A program made the translations under genes and the position numbers. The notes below the pieces were generated by a model. That model was not told the origin of the DNA and did no database searches. It saw only the letters and a program-made list of their open reading frames with translations. Positions 13,143-33,976 of a stretch of DNA of 33,976 nucleotides are shown here, one piece after another (positions within the stretch are counted from its first letter, which is position 1; each line of letters opens with the position of its first letter). The stretch covers positions 1 through 33,976 of the IMG/VR virus record IMGVR_UViG_3300046090_000075. One strand, written 5' to 3'. Source of the stretch: a virus.

Positions 13143-15593
13143 TTATGCTTTTCTTAAGTTTAAATATCCAGTTACTGCGAAATCATTTGTCCAAGTTGCA
13201 GTTACTTTAAAAGTTGTGCTATCATATACCCCACGTGTAAGTGTAAAAGGTACAGAATAATAGTAAACATTTGTTGAATTAGTAATATTAATTGTTTGAC
13301 CTCCAATAACTATTTGACCAGTTATATTTCCTTCACCAATATTCCCTCTTCTTACTCCAATTTGAAAAGTTTCACTCGCTGCATTTACCGTTATTCTTGT
13401 TGAACTATTTTGAGTAAATGTGGTAATTGTGGGTTCTGTGTATATTTCCGTATTTGAAATTATATAGTTTGGAATATTTGTCACAACGTTTGCCGTTGCT
13501 TGTGCAATAATTCCAAGAGAATTTACAATTTTGTAAATAAAACTTGACGAACCATTTAATACGCTTGGAGTGAACGTTACACTTTTCTTATTGATAAAAT
13601 TATTTAATGTTCCTAATGTAAATCCAGTTGTGTCAATTTGATATATTGATGCGTCTGGAGCTCCAAATTCATCGTTTGCCATTACATTTAATTCTTGTGG
13701 GAAAATTGTATTAACAAAGAAATTATCATCAACAGCATTGATAAATTTAGGTTGTATTTTAACCAATTCAACTTTCGTGTCTTTGTAAGGAATAAAATTG
13801 TTTATTTTATTAATGAAAAATGAACCTCCTAATTGCTTCAAATAAACTGGCTTTGAAAAGTCAATATTTGAAATATCACTTTCGTTCAAACGTAAAGTTG
13901 TGGTTATTATTTTGGCTTTGTTTAAAATACTCGCAAAATCAGAATAATATTTACTTTGTATTGAGCTATATTTTAAATCCGTGTAAAGGTCACCTTGTAT
14001 TGTATTTAATGTTGCATTTTGATTTAAAACTTCACTCGTTATATGGTAAGTTCCATTAATTTGTTGTGCTCTTAAAAAATAAAATCTATTTGATAAAGTC
14101 TTGTAATCAACGGTATTGTTGTCTTTTATCTCTTTGTTCCACAATCTATAAACATTTGATGTGAAGCCAATATTTGAAGTTAGATTAAAGTCTGGCGAAT
14201 AAATTACAGAACTAATAATGTTTTTTGAATCTGGCAAAACTGGATTATCAATCTCAATAAAGCCGTCGTTGAAAAAACTATTTTCATCATTGTATTTATG
14301 TCTTAACCAATTCTTTTGAGAATATGCTCCGTAAATGTAATTTTCATTGTCTAATGATTGAAATTTACCGCTCCAATCAATTGGGGTTCCGTATAAAATT
14401 TCGCTCAAATATTTGAAAGTATAACTATTATCAGTCTTGTCTTTGAAAATTGTTAGATTATACATCCATATAATTTCGCTCAAAAATTGCTTGATTTGCA
14501 TACCGCCAAATTCTTCTTCAAATAAAACGGCATTTGTCAATTCTTTGAAGTCAGCAGTTAAAAAGAAATCACTCACGCTTGTAGGGTAATCATCATAATT
14601 ATTGAAAACAACTTCCAACTGAAATTTAATACTTTCTCCAGCGGTCAATGAAATATATTGACTGACTGTTCTTGTTGTTCCGTCACAATAAAAAGATTCG
14701 CCGAGGAAACGTGCGTAAGCGATATAAATACTACCATTTGTTCTTTGAATAGAAATATAAGGGTTCAAAGTAAAAGTTACTTTGAGTTTTATATTTTGAA
14801 CAGCAACAAGAGTTATCTGGTCTCCAGAAGCAGTGATTTTACTTGTGCTAATTGATGAAAACGAATTGAATTTAACTGGAACATATTTTCCAGCGTAATC
14901 ATTTGTTACATTCGTCACATAATTTGAAATATCATTACTCGTTAAAACTGAAGCGCCAACTACTGGAGGACTTGCTTTTGGGTATGTGATATATAAATTT
15001 GTAAAATCTGGATTTGTCTTGAAACTTCCGTTTATTGTTATTCCAAGTGTGCTTTGAATTTTTTGTAATAGCCAACTTACTTTGACAGACGGAACAAGAT
15101 AATCAACATTTATTTTACTTCCGTGCATTGCTTTTCCATTGTAGTCAGCAAAAATATAAACGTAAGGCTTTGACAAATTTTGCGTATCTGAAACTGATTG
15201 AACTGATTTATCGTGAGCCAATTCGCTCAAATCTAAATCCGCCAAACTTAAATTTTCAATCGTTTTATAAAAATCTATAATCCCATCAAAAACATTACAC
15301 TTGAAATCTTTATCCGTTGAAGTAATAATCGCCCATCCACGTTTTACAATTGACTCACCGCTATCAGAATATAAATCACAATCATTTTTTCTATATGGTA
15401 TATTTGAATCGTTACCAACAATTCCAAGCATATCAAACGCTTTTATGTTATTTGCCGTTCTTGGAATAGAAAATGTATTTGTGTAATTTGTCTGTCTGGT
15501 ATTTACTGAACCAATTTCGTTCACTTGTAACGTTTTTGCTATCGTTACATCTGGTCGTAATTCAATATCGTACCCGTTTATAACTAACCTCAT
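13143..15593 (-). CDS. tail tip/hub protein with Ig-like domain
   Basis: An 816-aa strand-rich protein. The N-terminal 150 residues (INGYDIELRPD, TNYTNTFSIPRT, GWAIITSTDKDFKC, FDGIIDFYKTIENLSLADL) resemble the base domains of Bacteroidota phage tail-tip proteins. The region near 620-700 contains VDDNFFVN, LNVMANDEFGAP and SSFIYKIVN, a cadherin/bacterial-Ig type repeat often used in virion surface proteins. The stop overlaps the next gene's region closely (4-bp gap to the tape measure). It probably caps the tail and may touch host glycans or proteins (inference). Confidence 0.72.
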   Translation of the reverse strand: MRLVINGYDIELRPDVTIAKTLQVNEIGSVNTRQTNYTNTFSIPRTANNIKAFDMLGIVGNDSNIPYRKNDCDLYSDSGESIVKRGWAIITSTDKDFKCNVFDGIIDFYKTIENLSLADLDLSELAHDKSVQSVSDTQNLSKPYVYIFADYNGKAMHGSKINVDYLVPSVKVSWLLQKIQSTLGITINGSFKTNPDFTNLYITYPKASPPVVGASVLTSNDISNYVTNVTNDYAGKYVPVKFNSFSSISTSKITASGDQITLVAVQNIKLKVTFTLNPYISIQRTNGSIYIAYARFLGESFYCDGTTRTVSQYISLTAGESIKFQLEVVFNNYDDYPTSVSDFFLTADFKELTNAVLFEEEFGGMQIKQFLSEIIWMYNLTIFKDKTDNSYTFKYLSEILYGTPIDWSGKFQSLDNENYIYGAYSQKNWLRHKYNDENSFFNDGFIEIDNPVLPDSKNIISSVIYSPDFNLTSNIGFTSNVYRLWNKEIKDNNTVDYKTLSNRFYFLRAQQINGTYHITSEVLNQNATLNTIQGDLYTDLKYSSIQSKYYSDFASILNKAKIITTTLRLNESDISNIDFSKPVYLKQLGGSFFINKINNFIPYKDTKVELVKIQPKFINAVDDNFFVNTIFPQELNVMANDEFGAPDASIYQIDTTGFTLGTLNNFINKKSVTFTPSVLNGSSSFIYKIVNSLGIIAQATANVVTNIPNYIISNTEIYTEPTITTFTQNSSTRITVNAASETFQIGVRRGNIGEGNITGQIVIGGQTINITNSTNVYYYSVPFTLTRGVYDSTTFKVTATWTNDFAVTGYLNLRKA

Positions 15594-23324: not shown

Positions 23325-23825
23325 TTAATTTAATTGATAGTATGCTTTTTGATATTCTAAATGCGCTTCATATTCAGTTTCAAAACGTCCTAAATGTTTT
23401 TTTATTCCGTTAAAAGTTATATAAGCAATCCATTTTTTTCTTTTATTATCAAAATTTACTCCTATATATTTTGAAGAAGTTTTTGATTTATCTATATCTT
23501 TTATTCTATTTTCTCTATTAGTAATAATATGCAAATTTGAAAGCCTATTGTCAAATTGATTATTATTTTTATGGTCTATAACTATTTTATAACAGCAAGG
23601 AAAATGGTGTAAAAAAGCCATAGCAACTAATTGATGGACCTTAAAAAGTTTTATTTTTTTTTCTGACCTAAGTCTAACTCCTAAATATAATCTTCTTTTA
23701 TTTCCGATTAAATAAGGTTTTAAAATTTTTTCTTTTCCAAATTTTAAACTTTTTATATTACCTAAATTGCTTATTTGATAAATTCCTTCATATTCTGGAA
23801 TATCTTTCCATATTTCTTTTTCCAT
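23325..23825 (-). CDS. homing endonuclease: NUMOD4-HNH-AP2
   Basis: From MEKEIW the protein is 166 aa. Residues 1-25 are a NUMOD4 module (WKDIPEYEGIYQISNLGNIK). The HNH nuclease spans about 55-105 (VHQLVAMAFL, VIDHKNNNQFDNRLSNLHII, NRENR). Residues 115-160 are an AP2 DNA-binding domain (KYIGVNFDNKRKKWIAYI, HLGRFETEYEAH). It is a free-standing mobile nuclease that nicks or cuts phage DNA lacking the insertion. The longer reading from 23852 starts inside the leader pseudoknot and is rejected. Its stop (TAA) sits in the sequence that would be the promoter of the next gene. Confidence 0.9.
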   Translation of the reverse strand: MEKEIWKDIPEYEGIYQISNLGNIKSLKFGKEKILKPYLIGNKRRLYLGVRLRSEKKIKLFKVHQLVAMAFLHHFPCCYKIVIDHKNNNQFDNRLSNLHIITNRENRIKDIDKSKTSSKYIGVNFDNKRKKWIAYITFNGIKKHLGRFETEYEAHLEYQKAYYQLN

Positions 23826-23838
23826 ATTAAAAATAAAA

Positions 23839-23915
23839 GCCCACAATTTCAATCGGGCAGGATTTACTTTTGTGAGCGTTTAAATAATTTTTTAATTATA
23901 ATTGAACCTGCCCGA
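23839..23915 (-). promoter_or_regulatory. leader RNA pseudoknot, copy 1 (HNH-AP2 gene)
   Basis: On the minus strand four segments interleave: A TCGGGCAGG (23915-23907), B GCTCACAA (23877-23870), A' CCTGCCCGA (23861-23853), B' TTGTGGGC (23846-23839). A/A' pair over 9 bp and B/B' over 8 bp with one G-U. Loops are 29, 8 and 6 nt. B' is followed by a U-rich run and the ATG 13 nt later. The structure starts about 12 nt after the -7 box. It shares topology and position with copies 2 and 3 while the stem sequences are unrelated. Confidence 0.75.
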
Positions 23916-23927
23916 ACAACTATGTAA

Positions 23928-23958
23928 CAAATTTAATTAATATTTTTTAATTACCAAA
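23928..23958 (-). promoter_or_regulatory. promoter of the HNH-AP2 gene at 23825
   Basis: TTTG (23958-23955), 19 bp, TAAATTTG (23935-23928) on the minus strand: a full match to the Bacteroidota -33/-7 consensus. The predicted transcript start, about 6 nt downstream, falls just before the leader pseudoknot. Confidence 0.7.
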
Positions 23959-23975: not shown

Positions 23976-24602
23976 TTATTTTTTTTTATGTTTTTTATTA
24001 ATAGGAGTTTCTATAATCTTTTCTATAGACCATCCTCTACTAATTCTGTTATGAAAAGTTGAAGTTGACATTTTTAAAAATTCACACCATTCAGAAATAT
24101 TCATAGTTTGATTTTTATATGTCAATTTTGTATTATTTGTTCTATTATTGGCTTGTTGTTTTGGATTTGACCATTTACAATTTTTCGGTTCATAATTTCT
24201 ATTAACATCTATTCTATCTATAGATAAACCATTTGAATTTCCCATATCTAAAAAAAAATTTTCAAATGAATTTATCCATCTATCACATACAATTATTCCT
24301 CTACCTCCATAATTTTTATATCTTGTATTATTTTTATTATAACATCTATCTTTCATTGAACCCCATATAGAATATTCTTTAGATTTCCACATTCCGTGAG
24401 TTCCCAATAAAAGATAGCATTTGTTACAACTTCTTGAAGCTCCTCTTCTTAAAGAAGAACCTAAAACAATTTTTTCTTTACCACAATCACATTTTACATT
24501 GTATAATATAAAACCATTTTTATCTCTTTCTGTAATTTCTGAAATGACTGTCAATAGACCATATTTTTTTCCAATCATATCTTGTTTTGTTGTTTTTCCC
24601 AT
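23976..24602 (-). CDS. HNH-like homing endonuclease with zinc ribbon
   Basis: A 208-aa protein with an N-terminal GKKYGLLTV, a zinc-ribbon pair CDCG (about 38-41) and CNKC, then EYSIWGSMKDRCYN, YKNYGGRGIIVCDRW, LSIDRIDVNRNYEPKNCKW and KQQANNRTNN. This order is the common phage endonuclease-like family often annotated as HNH/AP2. The C-terminal ISEWCEFLKMSTSTFHNRISRGWSIEKII is a helix-turn-helix-like DNA-binding module. It lies between the MazG gene and the NUMOD4-HNH-AP2 gene, two unrelated mobile nucleases side by side. Confidence 0.82.
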   Translation of the reverse strand: MGKTTKQDMIGKKYGLLTVISEITERDKNGFILYNVKCDCGKEKIVLGSSLRRGASRSCNKCYLLLGTHGMWKSKEYSIWGSMKDRCYNKNNTRYKNYGGRGIIVCDRWINSFENFFLDMGNSNGLSIDRIDVNRNYEPKNCKWSNPKQQANNRTNNTKLTYKNQTMNISEWCEFLKMSTSTFHNRISRGWSIEKIIETPINKKHKKK

Positions 24603-25752: not shown

Positions 25753-26286
25753 TTAAATTTGTTTTAATTTTTCTTGATATGCATTTGAAGCTTCTTCAAT
25801 TGTTTTATATAATCCTAAACATAATTGTTTTCCGTTAATTCTTATTTTTGCCCTATATTTTTTTAAATCTTTTCTATAATGAACACCAACTGGTAAACCT
25901 GATTTTATTACTCTTTCTTTTGAGCAATTTTCTCTTTGACTTACTATTCTTAAATTACTTATTGAATTATTTAAAGTGTTACTATCAATATGGTCAATTA
26001 CCATTTTATGACCTTGAAATTTATAACCTAAAAATACAGATGCTAAAATTTGATGAATTGGTATTCTTTTTGGTTTTAAACCGCTAATTTGAACAAAAAC
26101 TTGTTTGTAATTTTTTATAGATATTTCTATTTTTTCATTTGTTATTTCTCCATAAAAAACCATATTTGAACCGCTACCTTTTCCATACCATTCTTTTGGT
26201 ATTTTTTTAATACGACCACATTTTGTGACTTCAATGTTTGTTTCTAAACCATTGTAATAAAATGGTTTCCATTCTAAATTTTTCAT
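25753..26286 (-). CDS. homing endonuclease: HNH-AP2
   Basis: From MKNLEW the protein is 177 aa. It has an N-terminal strand-rich NUMOD-like part (NIEVTKCGRIKKIP). The HNH nuclease spans about 80-135 (IPIHQILASVFLGY, MVIDHIDSNTLNNSISNLRIVS, QREN). A C-terminal AP2 domain follows (GLPVGVHYRKDLKKYRAKI, LGLYKTIEEASNAY). It is related in layout to the gene at 23325 but clearly diverged. The ATG at 26328 seen in a longer reading lies inside the leader pseudoknot; 26286 gives the domain start and a 12-nt spacing from helix B'. Confidence 0.88.
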   Translation of the reverse strand: MKNLEWKPFYYNGLETNIEVTKCGRIKKIPKEWYGKGSGSNMVFYGEITNEKIEISIKNYKQVFVQISGLKPKRIPIHQILASVFLGYKFQGHKMVIDHIDSNTLNNSISNLRIVSQRENCSKERVIKSGLPVGVHYRKDLKKYRAKIRINGKQLCLGLYKTIEEASNAYQEKLKQI

Positions 26287-26298
26287 AAAATAAAAAAA

Positions 26299-26366
26299 CC
26301 ACCAAATCAAAGGTCGCAGTCTTATCATTGGTGGAATTTATTTAAATTTTTATAAGTATCTGCGAC
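26299..26366 (-). promoter_or_regulatory. leader RNA pseudoknot, copy 2 (HNH-AP2 gene)
   Basis: On the minus strand: A GTCGCAG (26366-26360), B CCACCAA (26334-26328), A' CTGCGAC (26319-26313), B' TTGGTGG (26305-26299). Both helices are 7 bp and perfect. Loops are 25, 8 and 7 nt. L1 begins ATACTTA, L2 begins TGATAA, L3 contains TTTGAT. B' runs into seven T and the ATG 12 nt later. Confidence 0.78.
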
Positions 26367-26376
26367 AATACAAGAA

Positions 26377-26384
26377 CAAATTTA
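26377..26384 (-). promoter_or_regulatory. -7 box of the HNH-AP2 gene at 26286
   Basis: TAAATTTG on the minus strand, identical to the -7 boxes at 23928, 31157, 32429 and 33919, lies 10 nt before helix A of the pseudoknot. A matching TTTG upstream is not seen (TATT at the 19-bp position). Confidence 0.5.
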
Positions 26385-27956: not shown

Positions 27957-28703
27957 TTAAAGATTGTTTTGTTGGCTTGGAACATAAAGCCCAGTGGTAT
28001 CTAAATTTTGTTGAATAGTTGAAGCGGTTTGTCTTCCAGCAACAATTGGCTCAATTTCTTTTTTATTTGATTGAAAACTTTTATCACGACTTGCCCAATT
28101 TTTTAATCTTCTTTCCAAATCCCAAGTTTTTTCCATTTCCATTCTAAATTTAGAATTTGATTTATTTGGTTCTGTCCAATATTCGTAAAAATCTTTTATC
28201 ATTTTACGTTCATAAATAGAATTGAAAATAGAAAGCGAGGTAGCAAATTTTAATTTGCGTTCTTCAATATTATTTTCTTTTATTTTATTTTCTTTTATTT
28301 TATTTTCTATTATGGTATCACTTTCGCTTTGCGGTATTGATGCGGTCGCATTGCGCTCGCTTTCTTCCTTTTGTTTTCGGTGCTTTTCCCATCGTTCTTT
28401 TGCATTTTTGCTATTTTGTGAGCTTGTATTTTTAAATTCAGACAATTGTTCATTCAAAAAATCAATACAAATATACCCATCTTTTTGTTCGATTATATTT
28501 TCATCGAATAGCGAATTTAATGCGTTCGCATTACCAGCGCATAATTTTTGTATTGCCAATTTAACTGGTAAGTCACCAAGTCTTGACCAATACATAGAAC
28601 ACAAGTCAATAAATAATCCTTTATTTTCTCTTGAACAAATTTGAATATTCCCATTCTCCCATTGGTTTGGCTCAAATTTAAAATAGGGTAGTTCTTTAGC
28701 CAT
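27957..28703 (-). CDS. replication-initiation-like protein
   Basis: From MAKELPYF the protein is 248 aa. Residues 1-75 (PYFKFEPNQWENGNIQICS, GLFIDLCSMYWSR, LPVKLAIQKLC) form a winged-helix domain like the N-terminus of phage replisome-organiser proteins. A flexible KENKIKENN repeat linker near 135-150 follows. The C-terminal part (KMIKDFYEYWTEPN, RMEMEKTWDLERRLKNWASRD) is the motif common at the end of such initiators. A longer reading from 28769 begins in the leader pseudoknot and is rejected. Confidence 0.8.
   Translation of the reverse strand: MAKELPYFKFEPNQWENGNIQICSRENKGLFIDLCSMYWSRLGDLPVKLAIQKLCAGNANALNSLFDENIIEQKDGYICIDFLNEQLSEFKNTSSQNSKNAKERWEKHRKQKEESERNATASIPQSESDTIIENKIKENKIKENNIEERKLKFATSLSIFNSIYERKMIKDFYEYWTEPNKSNSKFRMEMEKTWDLERRLKNWASRDKSFQSNKKEIEPIVAGRQTASTIQQNLDTTGLYVPSQQNNL
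28273..28309 (-). repeat. tandem repeat coding for IKENK units
   Basis: About two and a half copies of a 15-bp unit (plus strand TTTTATTTTCTTTTA) encode repeated IKENK in the linker of the replication protein. Copy number may vary by slippage without breaking the frame because the unit is a multiple of three. Confidence 0.6.
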
Positions 28704-28729: not shown

Positions 28730-28813
28730 AACGGCTATAAATCCAAACGCTTCTCACTTCGTTTTTCATTATAGCCGTTGTAAAATTTCTTTAGGTTGAG
28801 TATAAGTGAGAAG
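28730..28813 (-). promoter_or_regulatory. leader RNA pseudoknot, copy 3 (replication gene)
   Basis: On the minus strand: A CTTCTCACTT (28813-28804), B AACGGCTATAA (28779-28769), A' AAGTGAGAAG (28759-28750), B' TTATAGCCGTT (28740-28730). Helices are 10 and 11 bp, both perfect. Loops are 24, 9 and 9 nt. L1 begins ATACTCA, L2 TGAAAA and L3 contains TTTGGAT, like copy 2. It begins 12 nt after a TAATTTAG box (28833-28826) and ends 26 nt before the ATG at 28703. Confidence 0.78.
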
Positions 28814-28825
28814 TCAACCACGGAG

Positions 28826-28833
28826 CTAAATTA
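28826..28833 (-). promoter_or_regulatory. possible -7 box of the replication operon
   Basis: TAATTTAG on the minus strand is one base off TAnnTTTG, at the same distance from the pseudoknot as the TAAATTTG boxes of copies 1 and 2. No -33 TTTG is evident. Confidence 0.35.
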
Positions 28834-28864: not shown

Positions 28865-29038
28865 TCATTTTTTTTCGTTTGTAATTTTAAATTGAGAAAA
28901 ACCTTTCTTGTAAGCAATGTATTGAAAGCCTTTTTTTCGCTTGTTTTTATGAAAGTGAAGCCATTCATCTAATTGCATATATTTCTTTCTTAAAATGCCA
29001 GTTTTTAGCTCAATAGCAATGATTTCTATTTCTTCCAT
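28865..29038 (-). CDS. 57-aa basic protein, function unknown
   Basis: A 57-codon ORF beginning MEEIEIIAIELKTGILRKKY, then a basic second half (FHKNKRKKGFQYIAYKKG). The ATG overlaps the end of the upstream endonuclease gene by 13 bp. It is followed by the promoter region of the replication gene. It may have been the original neighbour of NinG before the endonuclease inserted (inference). No family recognised. Confidence 0.65.
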   Translation of the reverse strand: MEEIEIIAIELKTGILRKKYMQLDEWLHFHKNKRKKGFQYIAYKKGFSQFKITNEKK

Positions 29039-29637
29039 TGCTTAATTTCTGTATCAATTGCTTTCTGGTGTTCCCAACCTCTTTTTATTCTTGCTAAAAT
29101 TGTAAAATAATTTTTTTCTTTTCTTAATTTTTCTAACAAAATTTTTAATGCAATTTTTTCATTATTATAAAAAACATAAAATGTATTATCTCTATTATTA
29201 CAATTTATTTTTGATGTTACAAATCTGCAATTTTCTGGAAAATAACCTAATGAATTATTTTTTCTATCTAATTGTAAACCTTTTTTATATCCGTTTTCAA
29301 TACACCAATTATAAAATTCATCAAAATTATTAAGCCAATTTTCACTAACTTTAATCCCTTTGTCAAAATAAAGATGTCTTTGAAAATAATTTTCAGAAGT
29401 TCTATACTTAATACCTCTCCACAATTTACATATAGGTGAATTACCAATTCCATTTCTTGTTTTTACATAGCAGCCACAAGATTGTATTTTACCTCTTTTT
29501 AAATGTAGCCATCTAACTTTTTTTTCATTACCACATTCACATTTACATAAAAAAGCCTTATTCTTTTGACCACTTGGTAAAATATAACTTTCAGCATTTG
29601 AAATTATTTCTAATTTTCCAATTTTAAAACCTATCAT
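29026..29637 (-). CDS. HNH-like homing endonuclease with zinc ribbon (second copy)
   Basis: A 203-aa protein with CKCECG and CGCY zinc-ribbon cysteines (about 31-36 and 54-57). It then has KLWRGIKYRTSE, FDKGIKVSENWLNNFDEFYNW, LQLDRKNNSLGYFPENCRFV and KINCNNRDN. It is the same family as the gene at 23976 but diverged. The usual G-G-R-G-I is FDKGIKV here, and D-R-I-D is DRKNN. The C-terminal ILARIKRGWEHQKAID is the repeated DNA-binding module. It sits between ninG and the 57-aa gene and overlaps the latter. Confidence 0.8.
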   Translation of the reverse strand: MIGFKIGKLEIISNAESYILPSGQKNKAFLCKCECGNEKKVRWLHLKRGKIQSCGCYVKTRNGIGNSPICKLWRGIKYRTSENYFQRHLYFDKGIKVSENWLNNFDEFYNWCIENGYKKGLQLDRKNNSLGYFPENCRFVTSKINCNNRDNTFYVFYNNEKIALKILLEKLRKEKNYFTILARIKRGWEHQKAIDTEIKQWKK

Positions 29638-31128: not shown

Positions 31129-31156
31129 AATATTGATTTTTATTGATTTTGAATAG

Positions 31157-31187
31157 CAAATTTAATAAATAAATTTTAATTAACAAA
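31157..31187 (-). promoter_or_regulatory. promoter of the exonuclease-ninG operon
   Basis: TTTG (31187-31184), 19 bp, TAAATTTG (31164-31157) on the minus strand, followed by an A-rich leader that ends AATCAATATTATG at the exonuclease start. It lies just after the terminator of the recT pair. Confidence 0.75.
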
Positions 31188-31195
31188 TTTTATAT

Positions 31196-31226
31196 AAAAA
31201 AAGCGAGATTTATTTTAAACCTCGCT
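31196..31226 (-). terminator. intrinsic terminator after the recT-DUF3127 pair
   Basis: On the minus strand AGCGAGGTTTA, loop AAA, TAAATCTCGCT gives an 11-bp stem with one G-U, followed by TTTTTT. It is 11 bp after the stop of the DUF3127 gene. It reads almost as well on the plus strand but lacks a T-run there. Confidence 0.85.
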
Positions 31227-31507: not shown

Positions 31508-32403
31508 TATTTTTGTTGATTTAAAATTAAATTATTTTCTACATCGTTAAATTGTTCAAAAAGTCTATTGAACACTTCTGTGGGAACGCTATCTTTCAAT
31601 TCCATATATTCATCAATATTTGAAACAGAATTTAAAAATTGTAGCGTTCTTTTGTCTTCCTCTTTTTCATTCAAAGTTTCAAGGTCAATTGGTTCGTTAT
31701 CTGGATATTTGAAATTTCCGTCATCTTTAATAACTGACTGGTCAACCGCTGAAGCTTTTTGCATTTCAATTGAAAGTGGAGCAAATCCAGAATTCAAATG
31801 TAATTTAACAACCGTCTTTTTCGCCATTTTATCAAAGTCGTCTTTCCACAATCCAGTTCCATATTTTTTGAAAGTCTGTGAATATTTCTTTGCGTGTTTA
31901 TTTATTTCTTCAATAGGCATAAAAAATACGTTTTCAAAGCCGTTTAAAAGTTTGAAGTACGAAGCGTAACCAATTACTTTTTCGCTCGTCTTGGACTTCC
32001 ATTCAAAGTGATATCCGCCAAAACTATCATCTTCCACCAATTGACCTTCGTAAATTTCTTTTACTTCAAGATTTTTGTATTGATTTGAATTGATTGCCAA
32101 TTGGCGAAAACCTTTGTAACCAATTTGAAATTGAGCTTCACGACCATAAGGTATAATGTAAGCAAATCCAAGATTGTTATTAATTGGTAATCCAAGTGAA
32201 GTTGCGGTCAAACAAGCATTGAATAGACTTGCTGGCTCACACGCTTGTAATTTATCATTCGCATTAAAAAGGCTCAAAGCCGAACTGACAAATTGTGTAT
32301 CTCTGTCTTTTAGAACCTCCTTGATTCTTTCTTTAATAGCTGGGCTATCCAACAATTGTGCAAAGCCTTTTTTCTGGCTGGTAGTTTGAACTTGTGTATT
32401 CAT
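31507..32403 (-). CDS. recT: RecT single-strand annealing protein
   Basis: The 298-aa protein shows the RecT pattern: FNACLTATSLGLPINNNLGFAYIIPYG, AQFQIGYKGFRQLAINS, and MPIEEINKHAKKYSQTF near 160-180. GTGLWKDDFDKMAKKTVVKLHL follows. It anneals complementary strands in phage recombination. It is preceded by a TAAATTTG box and by the leader AATCAATATTAAAAACC, which is also found before the gene at 22003. Confidence 0.95.
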   Translation of the reverse strand: MNTQVQTTSQKKGFAQLLDSPAIKERIKEVLKDRDTQFVSSALSLFNANDKLQACEPASLFNACLTATSLGLPINNNLGFAYIIPYGREAQFQIGYKGFRQLAINSNQYKNLEVKEIYEGQLVEDDSFGGYHFEWKSKTSEKVIGYASYFKLLNGFENVFFMPIEEINKHAKKYSQTFKKYGTGLWKDDFDKMAKKTVVKLHLNSGFAPLSIEMQKASAVDQSVIKDDGNFKYPDNEPIDLETLNEKEEDKRTLQFLNSVSNIDEYMELKDSVPTEVFNRLFEQFNDVENNLILNQQK

Positions 32404-32428
32404 ATTTTTGGTTTTTAATATTGATTAA

Positions 32429-32436
32429 CAAATTTA
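32429..32436 (-). promoter_or_regulatory. -7 box of the recT transcript
   Basis: TAAATTTG on the minus strand, 25 bp before the recT ATG. A partial GTTT lies 17 bp upstream instead of TTTG at 19 bp, so strength is uncertain. Confidence 0.5.
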
Positions 32437-32460
32437 ATTAAAAAATTTTATTTAAACTAA

Positions 32461-33882: not shown

Positions 33883-33918
33883 AATGTTTGATTTTGATTA
33901 TTATTTAATTTTGATATG

Positions 33919-33949
33919 CAAATTTAATAATTATTTTTTAATTAACAAG
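33919..33949 (-). promoter_or_regulatory. early promoter of the small-gene operon
   Basis: CTTG (33949-33946), 19 bp, TAAATTTG (33926-33919) on the minus strand, with a leader of about 30 nt to the ATG at 33882. This is the same -7 box and spacing as the exonuclease and HNH promoters. It is the most upstream promoter visible in the window. Confidence 0.7.
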
Positions 33950-33976
33950 TGAAAGACAAAAAAAATTTAAAAAAAA

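Follow-up and report, generated by a model that had tools for sequence, protein, structure and literature searches.

The fold that precedes the replication gene in the window (i.e., the whole stretch of 33,976 nucleotides analysed here, from the IMG/VR record IMGVR_UViG_3300046090_000075) is one member of a large family of phage leader elements built on two hairpins with kissing loops. Many related phages carry this fold with other letters, and Rfam 15 has no family that fits it; it therefore probably acts as an RNA switch on phage replication of a kind not yet described. Three pooled routes (relatives of the replication gene, relatives of the HNH genes, and pattern scans) yielded at least 109 non-redundant elements, among which about 55 loop sequences were distinguished, so that the element looks like an abundant structured RNA. 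Its position ties it to the replication decision in phages whose promoters are of the Bacteroidota type, a group for which little is known of transcription control.

The three copies in the window

Copy 3 (28833-28730, minus strand) reads TAATTTAG / CTCCGTGGTTGACTTCTCACTTATACTCAACCTAAAGAAATTTTACAACGGCTATAATGAAAAACGAAGTGAGAAGCGTTTGGATTTATAGCCGTT, and its parts are listed in Table 1 with those of copies 1 and 2. The first-pass annotation had described it as the copy with the longest helices, and this proved exact: helix A and helix P2 pair without a mismatch over 10 and 11 bp (9 and 8 bp in copy 1, 7 and 7 bp in copy 2), and because they are interleaved they form a pseudoknot. The best interleaved score of copy 3 (50) was reached by none of 3000 dinucleotide shuffles, while the scores of copies 1 and 2 were reached by 1 and 12 of 3000, respectively. 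Indeed, a plain minimum free energy (MFE) fold of copy 3 independently gives P1, P2 and P3 and leaves both strands of helix A as loops; as the loops of P1 and P3 are the two strands of the 10-bp helix, copy 3 consists of two hairpins with kissing loops, P3 capping P2. Both helices of the earlier description thus stand, and the kissing loops, the promoter and the terminator-like U-run that most of the family carries after P2 go beyond it.

The gene behind copy 3, whose ATG lies 26 nt after P2, was matched to primosomal proteins in PHROG (two families, E 1.7e-7 and 2.4e-6), so its earlier label of replication-initiation-like gene is fair; in the complete isolated Flavobacterium phage morran9-1, its relative is followed by a primase. 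Though its helices are the longest, copy 3 is the most divergent copy, because its -7 box has a mismatch and P2 is followed by TATGTTTTAA and not by an immediate U-run, and without a clean U-run the copy that leads the replication gene in the window may terminate weakly. A covariance model trained on other phages gave it 26.9 bits only with filters off and on a short stretch, and it was absent from the list of the large covariance-model search (E > 5). With this window left out of training, the model recovered copy 2 at 48.0 bits (E 2.8e-7) and copy 1 at 31.9 bits (E 0.0019).

Table 1. Features of the kissing-loop elements and of the genes that they lead in the window
Feature	Position	Strand	Sequence	Basis or remark
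Copy 3, -7 promoter box	28826..28833	minus	TAATTTAG	sequence; 1 mismatch to Bacteroidota consensus TAnnTTTG
Copy 3, P1 5' strand	28814..28819	minus	GGTTGA	MFE fold; pairs with 28794-28799; family P1 covaries at 6/6 pairs, with double changes
Copy 3, kissing strand A5 in P1 loop (helix A 5' strand)	28804..28813	minus	CTTCTCACTT	kissing shown independently for the family
Copy 3, P1 3' strand	28794..28799	minus	TCAACC	MFE fold
Copy 3, A/U-rich linker	28780..28793	minus	TAAAGAAATTTTAC	sequence; linkers of relatives mostly 13-20 nt
Copy 3, P2 5' strand	28769..28779	minus	AACGGCTATAA	sequence and MFE fold; pairs with 28730-28740
Copy 3, P3 5' strand	28760..28764	minus	AAACG	MFE fold; pairs with 28745-28749
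Copy 3, kissing strand A3 in P3 loop (helix A 3' strand)	28750..28759	minus	AAGTGAGAAG	complementary to A5 over 10 bp; shuffles 0/3000
Copy 3, P3 3' strand	28745..28749	minus	CGTTT	MFE fold
Copy 3, P2 3' strand	28730..28740	minus	TTATAGCCGTT	sequence; no immediate U-run
Replication (primosomal-like) gene led by copy 3	27957..28703	minus		PHROG 3992 / 9327 primosomal protein
Copy 2	26299..26384	minus		promoter TAAATTTG; P1 GTAT/ATAC; T7 after P2
Copy 2, kissing strands	26366-26360 x 26319-26313	minus	GTCGCAG x CTGCGAC	
Copy 2, P2	26334-26328 / 26305-26299	minus	CCACCAA / TTGGTGG	
HNH_3 (+AP2-like) homing endonuclease gene behind copy 2	25753..26286	minus		Pfam HNH_3 E 6e-10
Copy 1	23839..23935	minus		promoter TAAATTTG; P1 ATAGTTG/CAATTAT; TTTTATTTTT after P2
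Copy 1, kissing strands	23915-23907 x 23861-23853	minus	TCGGGCAGG x CCTGCCCGA	
Copy 1, P2	23877-23870 / 23846-23839	minus	GCTCACAA / TTGTGGGC	
NUMOD4 + HNH_3 homing endonuclease gene behind copy 1	23325..23825	minus		Pfam NUMOD4 E 1.1e-12, HNH_3 E 3.2e-7

No kissing-loop leader was found before two further HNH genes of the window (PHROG 374; 23976-24602 and 29026-29637, minus strand); in the first of them, a TATATTTG box is followed by a plain leader of short length. At 31130-31202, 32402-32455 and 33892-33964, promoter units rich in A/T recur with the direct repeats D1/D2 before an exonuclease gene, RecT and another early gene; their leaders are short and no kissing-loop element was found in them, which suggests that the element is used selectively. 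A marginal descriptor match at 21963-21900 (minus strand), before a 101-aa gene of unknown family, has neither P1 nor P3 and is probably due to chance.

A family in which little but pairing is conserved

Nearly all elements share one plan. A promoter box is followed by P1, which has A5 in its loop, and by an A/U-rich linker; the 5' strand of P2 then leads through an internal loop, and usually through P3, to the other kissing strand, and the closing strands P3' and P2' are followed by a U-run and the ATG. The kissing strand in the P1 loop has 6-10 nt, P2 has 7-15 bp, and the whole element is about 95 nt long. Between phages, the letters of stems and loops are almost wholly different, so that nearly nothing is conserved but pairing. 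A short variant without P3 (L011, L016 and L053, positions 18-106 in the latter) has its kissing strand in the P2 loop (TGT[GTGATGG]C) and a longer linker. Note that near-identical GGTCTCAC elements with a bulged P2 were observed on different contigs (L208, L212, L216, L172 and L176), and since the perfect-helix descriptor missed them, the copy count is a lower bound.

The DNA upstream of relatives of the replication gene was read, and this descriptor requires two interleaved helices after a TAnnTTTG box. A score of 38 or more was given to 40 elements at 886 promoter-like sites, whereas shuffles gave 0-1 such elements and the 1037 control sites gave 2. Comparative analysis further establishes both the structure and the kissing contact. 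When covariance models were built with nested pairs only (P1, P2 and P3), the kissing strands being unknown to the model, all 36 distinct matches had complementary loops (6-10 bp). The loop-by-loop score averaged 20.0 within elements versus 12.0 with loops swapped between elements, and none of 20,000 permutations reached the total. In an alignment fitted to the structure, P1, P2 and P3 covary, with double changes in 21 of 22 pairs and 90.4% pairing versus 38-46% when slid by one column. In the reverse test, IMG/VR was scanned for TTTG and a given pair of kissing strands only, and among the matches listed (55 unique sites) a P2 scoring at least 20 was present in 75% versus 0.9% of shuffled sequences, and P1 in 95% versus 26%. 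The full TAnnTTTG box, from which copy 3 deviates, was found at 48 of these 55 sites, and a T-run of at least four in 93% of those having P2. Minus-strand matches of the covariance models that overlap true elements were set aside as artefacts of the symmetric P2.

Since the loops are hypervariable yet always matched, compensatory mutation offers a direct test of the contact. In both phages that were checked, the loop sequences of the different copies are unique and mutually non-complementary, and such loop pairs would be useful for orthogonal RNA parts.

Genomic settings of the element

The first-pass annotation had held that the element is more than a component of a homing cassette, an idea that could be checked upstream of orthologous replication genes in phages lacking HNH genes and that would fall if related phages carried the element only with such genes. 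Our results support it. Among the relatives of the replication gene with enough upstream DNA, 32 of 42 loci have the element upstream; 11 of these 32 have it directly before the gene (16-28 nt), most others at 254-278 nt with one gene of about 73 aa between, and a few further away. A locus recognised by eye (L018), with an unusually long spacing, appears to be a 33rd. In morran9-1, the single element (14186-14285 of MN812219) heads the replication operon, and neither an annotated homing endonuclease (among 73 features) nor an HNH_3 match was found. Likewise, a search for HNH_3 gave no match in 16 of the 20 records tested, most of which are fragments. An occurrence restricted to HNH genes was therefore not observed.

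Elements of the morran9-1 type were found by BLAST in 46 Flavobacterium phage records, many of them duplicates or close relatives. Gene-blind pattern scans, performed by loop sequence, added at least 56 further non-redundant elements, mainly before replication operons. The first gene behind these elements, or the gene after a small first gene, encodes replication proteins of unrelated families, assigned by Pfam or by resemblance (DUF6291, Lin1244_N, RepL-like, HTH_36/DUF7833 and DEAD/ResIII helicases); counting all routes, the non-homologous genes at the head of these operons include primosomal-like ones. In the scans, other first genes encode endonucleases (NUMOD4/HNH_3, HNH and GIY-YIG), in agreement with the HNH searches, and some are small or unknown genes. 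Both settings are combined in phage mumin6-1, in which one element stands before a helicase/VapE operon and another before a NUMOD4 endonuclease gene. In addition, recurring HNH-linked sub-lineages were found, such as GTCGTCG/CGACGAC in L018, L027, L053 and mumin6-1, which is consistent with endonuclease genes carrying their own promoter and leader. It is plausible, as proposed earlier, that endonuclease genes have captured copies of the element. Its place before replication genes most readily suggests a gate on replication, and a control of replication timing is plausible as well.

A covariance-model search of 296 bacterial genomes with a strict filter, which may miss prophage copies, gave five weak matches, and the four readable ones are ordinary, P2-like intrinsic terminators. 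As far as this limited search goes, the element therefore looks phage-borne.

Promoter and terminator-like signatures

With the transcript start placed from the promoter box, P1 begins about 5 nt behind TTTG. Behind P2, 71% of the next 8 nt are T and 20% are A, A dominating further on, and a T-run of at least four follows P2 in 101 of the 109 listed elements versus 13.8% of control 14-nt windows; copy 3, L045, L047, L062 and L067 have no good immediate U-run. The start codon lies 7-34 nt from P2 in most elements and usually 7-50 nt overall. These comparisons show the promoter and U-run signatures, the places of the element in the genomes and its association with the genes.

As in an intrinsic terminator, a stem is directly followed by a U-run in most of the family, copy 3 being an exception. 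The loop of P2 is not the short one (3-8 nt) of such terminators: it spans about 20-28 nt, is capped by P3 and is occupied by a kissing strand, and P2 was not listed by the terminator scan because its loop is longer than the scan allows. By sequence, the terminator-like unit lies between a promoter-like box and the start codon, as expected for an attenuator. Pairing of the upstream region with the two P2 strands revealed no antiterminator: the observed values of 10.1 and 10.6 compare with 10.4 and 11.0 after shuffling. A leader peptide was not seen either.

Comparison with known RNAs

At the gathering score, none of the Rfam 15 families matches the element in the window or at 12 further loci, and nine other loci gave only a DUF805b RNA elsewhere in L001; copy 3 alone gave weak matches at chance level, and a weak Pedo-repair match (10.4 bits versus a gathering threshold of 150) was dismissed as chance. 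No description of the kissing-loop fold or of its setting was found in the literature searched. A ribozyme or riboswitch was rejected, as no conserved ligand-binding or catalytic core is present. The Pistol ribozyme and the preQ1 and fluoride riboswitches, which have conserved catalytic or ligand cores, resemble the element in that a hairpin loop pairs with a downstream strand; in contrast, the element conserves nearly only pairing and matches no Rfam model.

Replication leaders of plasmids and phages offer further likenesses. The pT181 repC and P4 alpha leaders are attenuators that work with antisense or immunity RNA and alternative hairpins. Like the element, they place a terminator between promoter and replication gene and use RNA-RNA loop contacts, whereas the contact of the element is internal to a single leader, for which a search for an alternative hairpin found none. 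In IncI/IncB plasmid rep leaders, a pseudoknot activates translation, with a leader peptide and antisense control. There too an upstream hairpin loop pairs with RNA near the start of the replication gene, but the element has a U-run after its second hairpin and no leader peptide.

Among phage RNAs, the HK022-type put RNA binds RNA polymerase at the beta' zinc-binding domain. Like put (PMC9378689), the element is a phage RNA that follows an early promoter directly and has two hairpins close to the transcript's 5' end, as placed from the promoter box. The put sequence is shared, whereas the element is hypervariable, its loops kiss and its second hairpin ends in a U-run; judged from the lack of conserved positions among the elements themselves, with their many loop sequences, no conserved put sequence is present.

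Proposed role and alternatives

Taken on sequence evidence, the element may well be a promoter-proximal attenuator, i.e., a cis-acting 5' leader with a terminator organised by the kissing loop, a reading to which we give about an even chance. The TAnnTTTG promoter would fire and the new RNA would open with P1; after the A/U-rich linker, the P2/P3 hairpin would form and its A3 loop would kiss A5 in the loop of P1. With the U-run behind P2, the unit can be read as an intrinsic terminator ahead of the start codon, and we infer that most transcripts would end in vivo after about 95 nt. The polymerase would then enter the replication operon or the endonuclease gene only on some trigger, be it an alteration of RNA polymerase itself, a phage factor or a shift in the physiology of the host. 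As no alternative antiterminator helix was found, the kissing contact is the only visible candidate for the switch: it could speed the closure of the terminator, hinder it, or be a surface for a phage factor or a modified polymerase. Several points speak against an attenuator: as no upstream antiterminator pairing with the P2 strands was found, the sequence does not reveal how the switch would work; copy 3 and a few other elements have no good immediate U-run; the terminator scan does not list P2; and the short distance of P2 to most start codons makes a translational role also possible.

More tentatively, the kissing between the first hairpin and the loop of the promoter-proximal terminator might decide read-through, the whole being a standard on/off gate of replication operons in phages with Bacteroidota-type promoters, hijacked by homing endonucleases; we consider this fuller version possible and somewhat doubtful. 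The element would give one regulatory reason for a leader common to replication genes and homing endonucleases, and the fuller version, if true, would represent a new class of RNA control in which the loop letters change freely but are always matched.

The attenuator has two main rivals, a structure that stabilises the 5' end or serves as a platform for translation, and an RNA that resembles put. In the former, which we regard as rather unlikely, a kissing-locked P1 at +1 would shield the 5' end of the mRNA, and the compact fold would keep the A/U-rich initiation region open in hosts little reliant on Shine-Dalgarno sequences. The place of P1 at or near the presumed transcript start, the near absence of conserved primary sequence, which fits a mechanical role, and the mostly short distance from P2 to the start codon are all in line with it. 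However, such a platform does not need the U-run found directly after P2, the position of the element is fixed relative to the promoter and not to the start codon, and in about 14 leaders P2 lies 44-50 nt from the ATG with a small hairpin-like stretch between.

A put-like antiterminator, in which the two 5' hairpins would attach to RNA polymerase during elongation and help it past P2 and the terminators further on, appears improbable. It would fit the multi-gene replication operons that the element heads, and the place just after a phage promoter, the two 5'-end hairpins and the size are similar: putL measures about 70 nt, and its pairing begins at +3 (PMC9378689). Nevertheless, put RNAs share sequence similarity and are described there with neither a terminator nor a kissing loop (PMC9378689), whereas the element has no conserved primary sequence and also serves single endonuclease genes.

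It is distinctly improbable that the element is a stand-alone small RNA gene acting in trans, with only incidental read-through into its neighbour. Its own promoter-like box, its terminator-like end and its length would suit such a gene, but it precedes replication or endonuclease genes in the same orientation, with a spacing that is short and varies rather little, and the unique, mutually non-complementary loops of the two phages checked argue against a common trans target. Finally, that the element belongs to the homing cassette of the HNH genes and lies near the replication gene by chance is very improbable and already largely refuted by the occurrences in replication operons. Two of the three window copies and many others do precede HNH or GIY-YIG genes, but the element also heads the operon of a complete phage with no detected HNH_3 gene, is found before many replication genes by the gene-blind scan, and was not found before two HNH genes of the window.

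Two further observations concern the surroundings of the element. Another short stretch that is conserved and resembles a hairpin (TAGTTATCGGTAATCTTAAAACCGTTA, with variants) occurs between P2 and the ATG of the first gene (about 73 aa) of replication operons, at about 5746-5795 of L001 (about 14284-14333 of MN812219), with equivalents in L007, L013, L020, L025, L034, L036, L044 and L046. It is also matched by blastn in the Cellulophaga phages phi10:1, phi19:1 and phi18:3, and no kissing-loop element was found in the 50 kb of phi10:1 that were scanned; possibly this stretch is an operator for the small protein. Besides, the DUF805b RNA mentioned above (RF02914, 52.1 bits; L001, 4300-4334) lies just upstream of morran9-1 gp040, which is annotated by similarity to Pfam PF02195, indicating that other leader RNAs exist in these phages.
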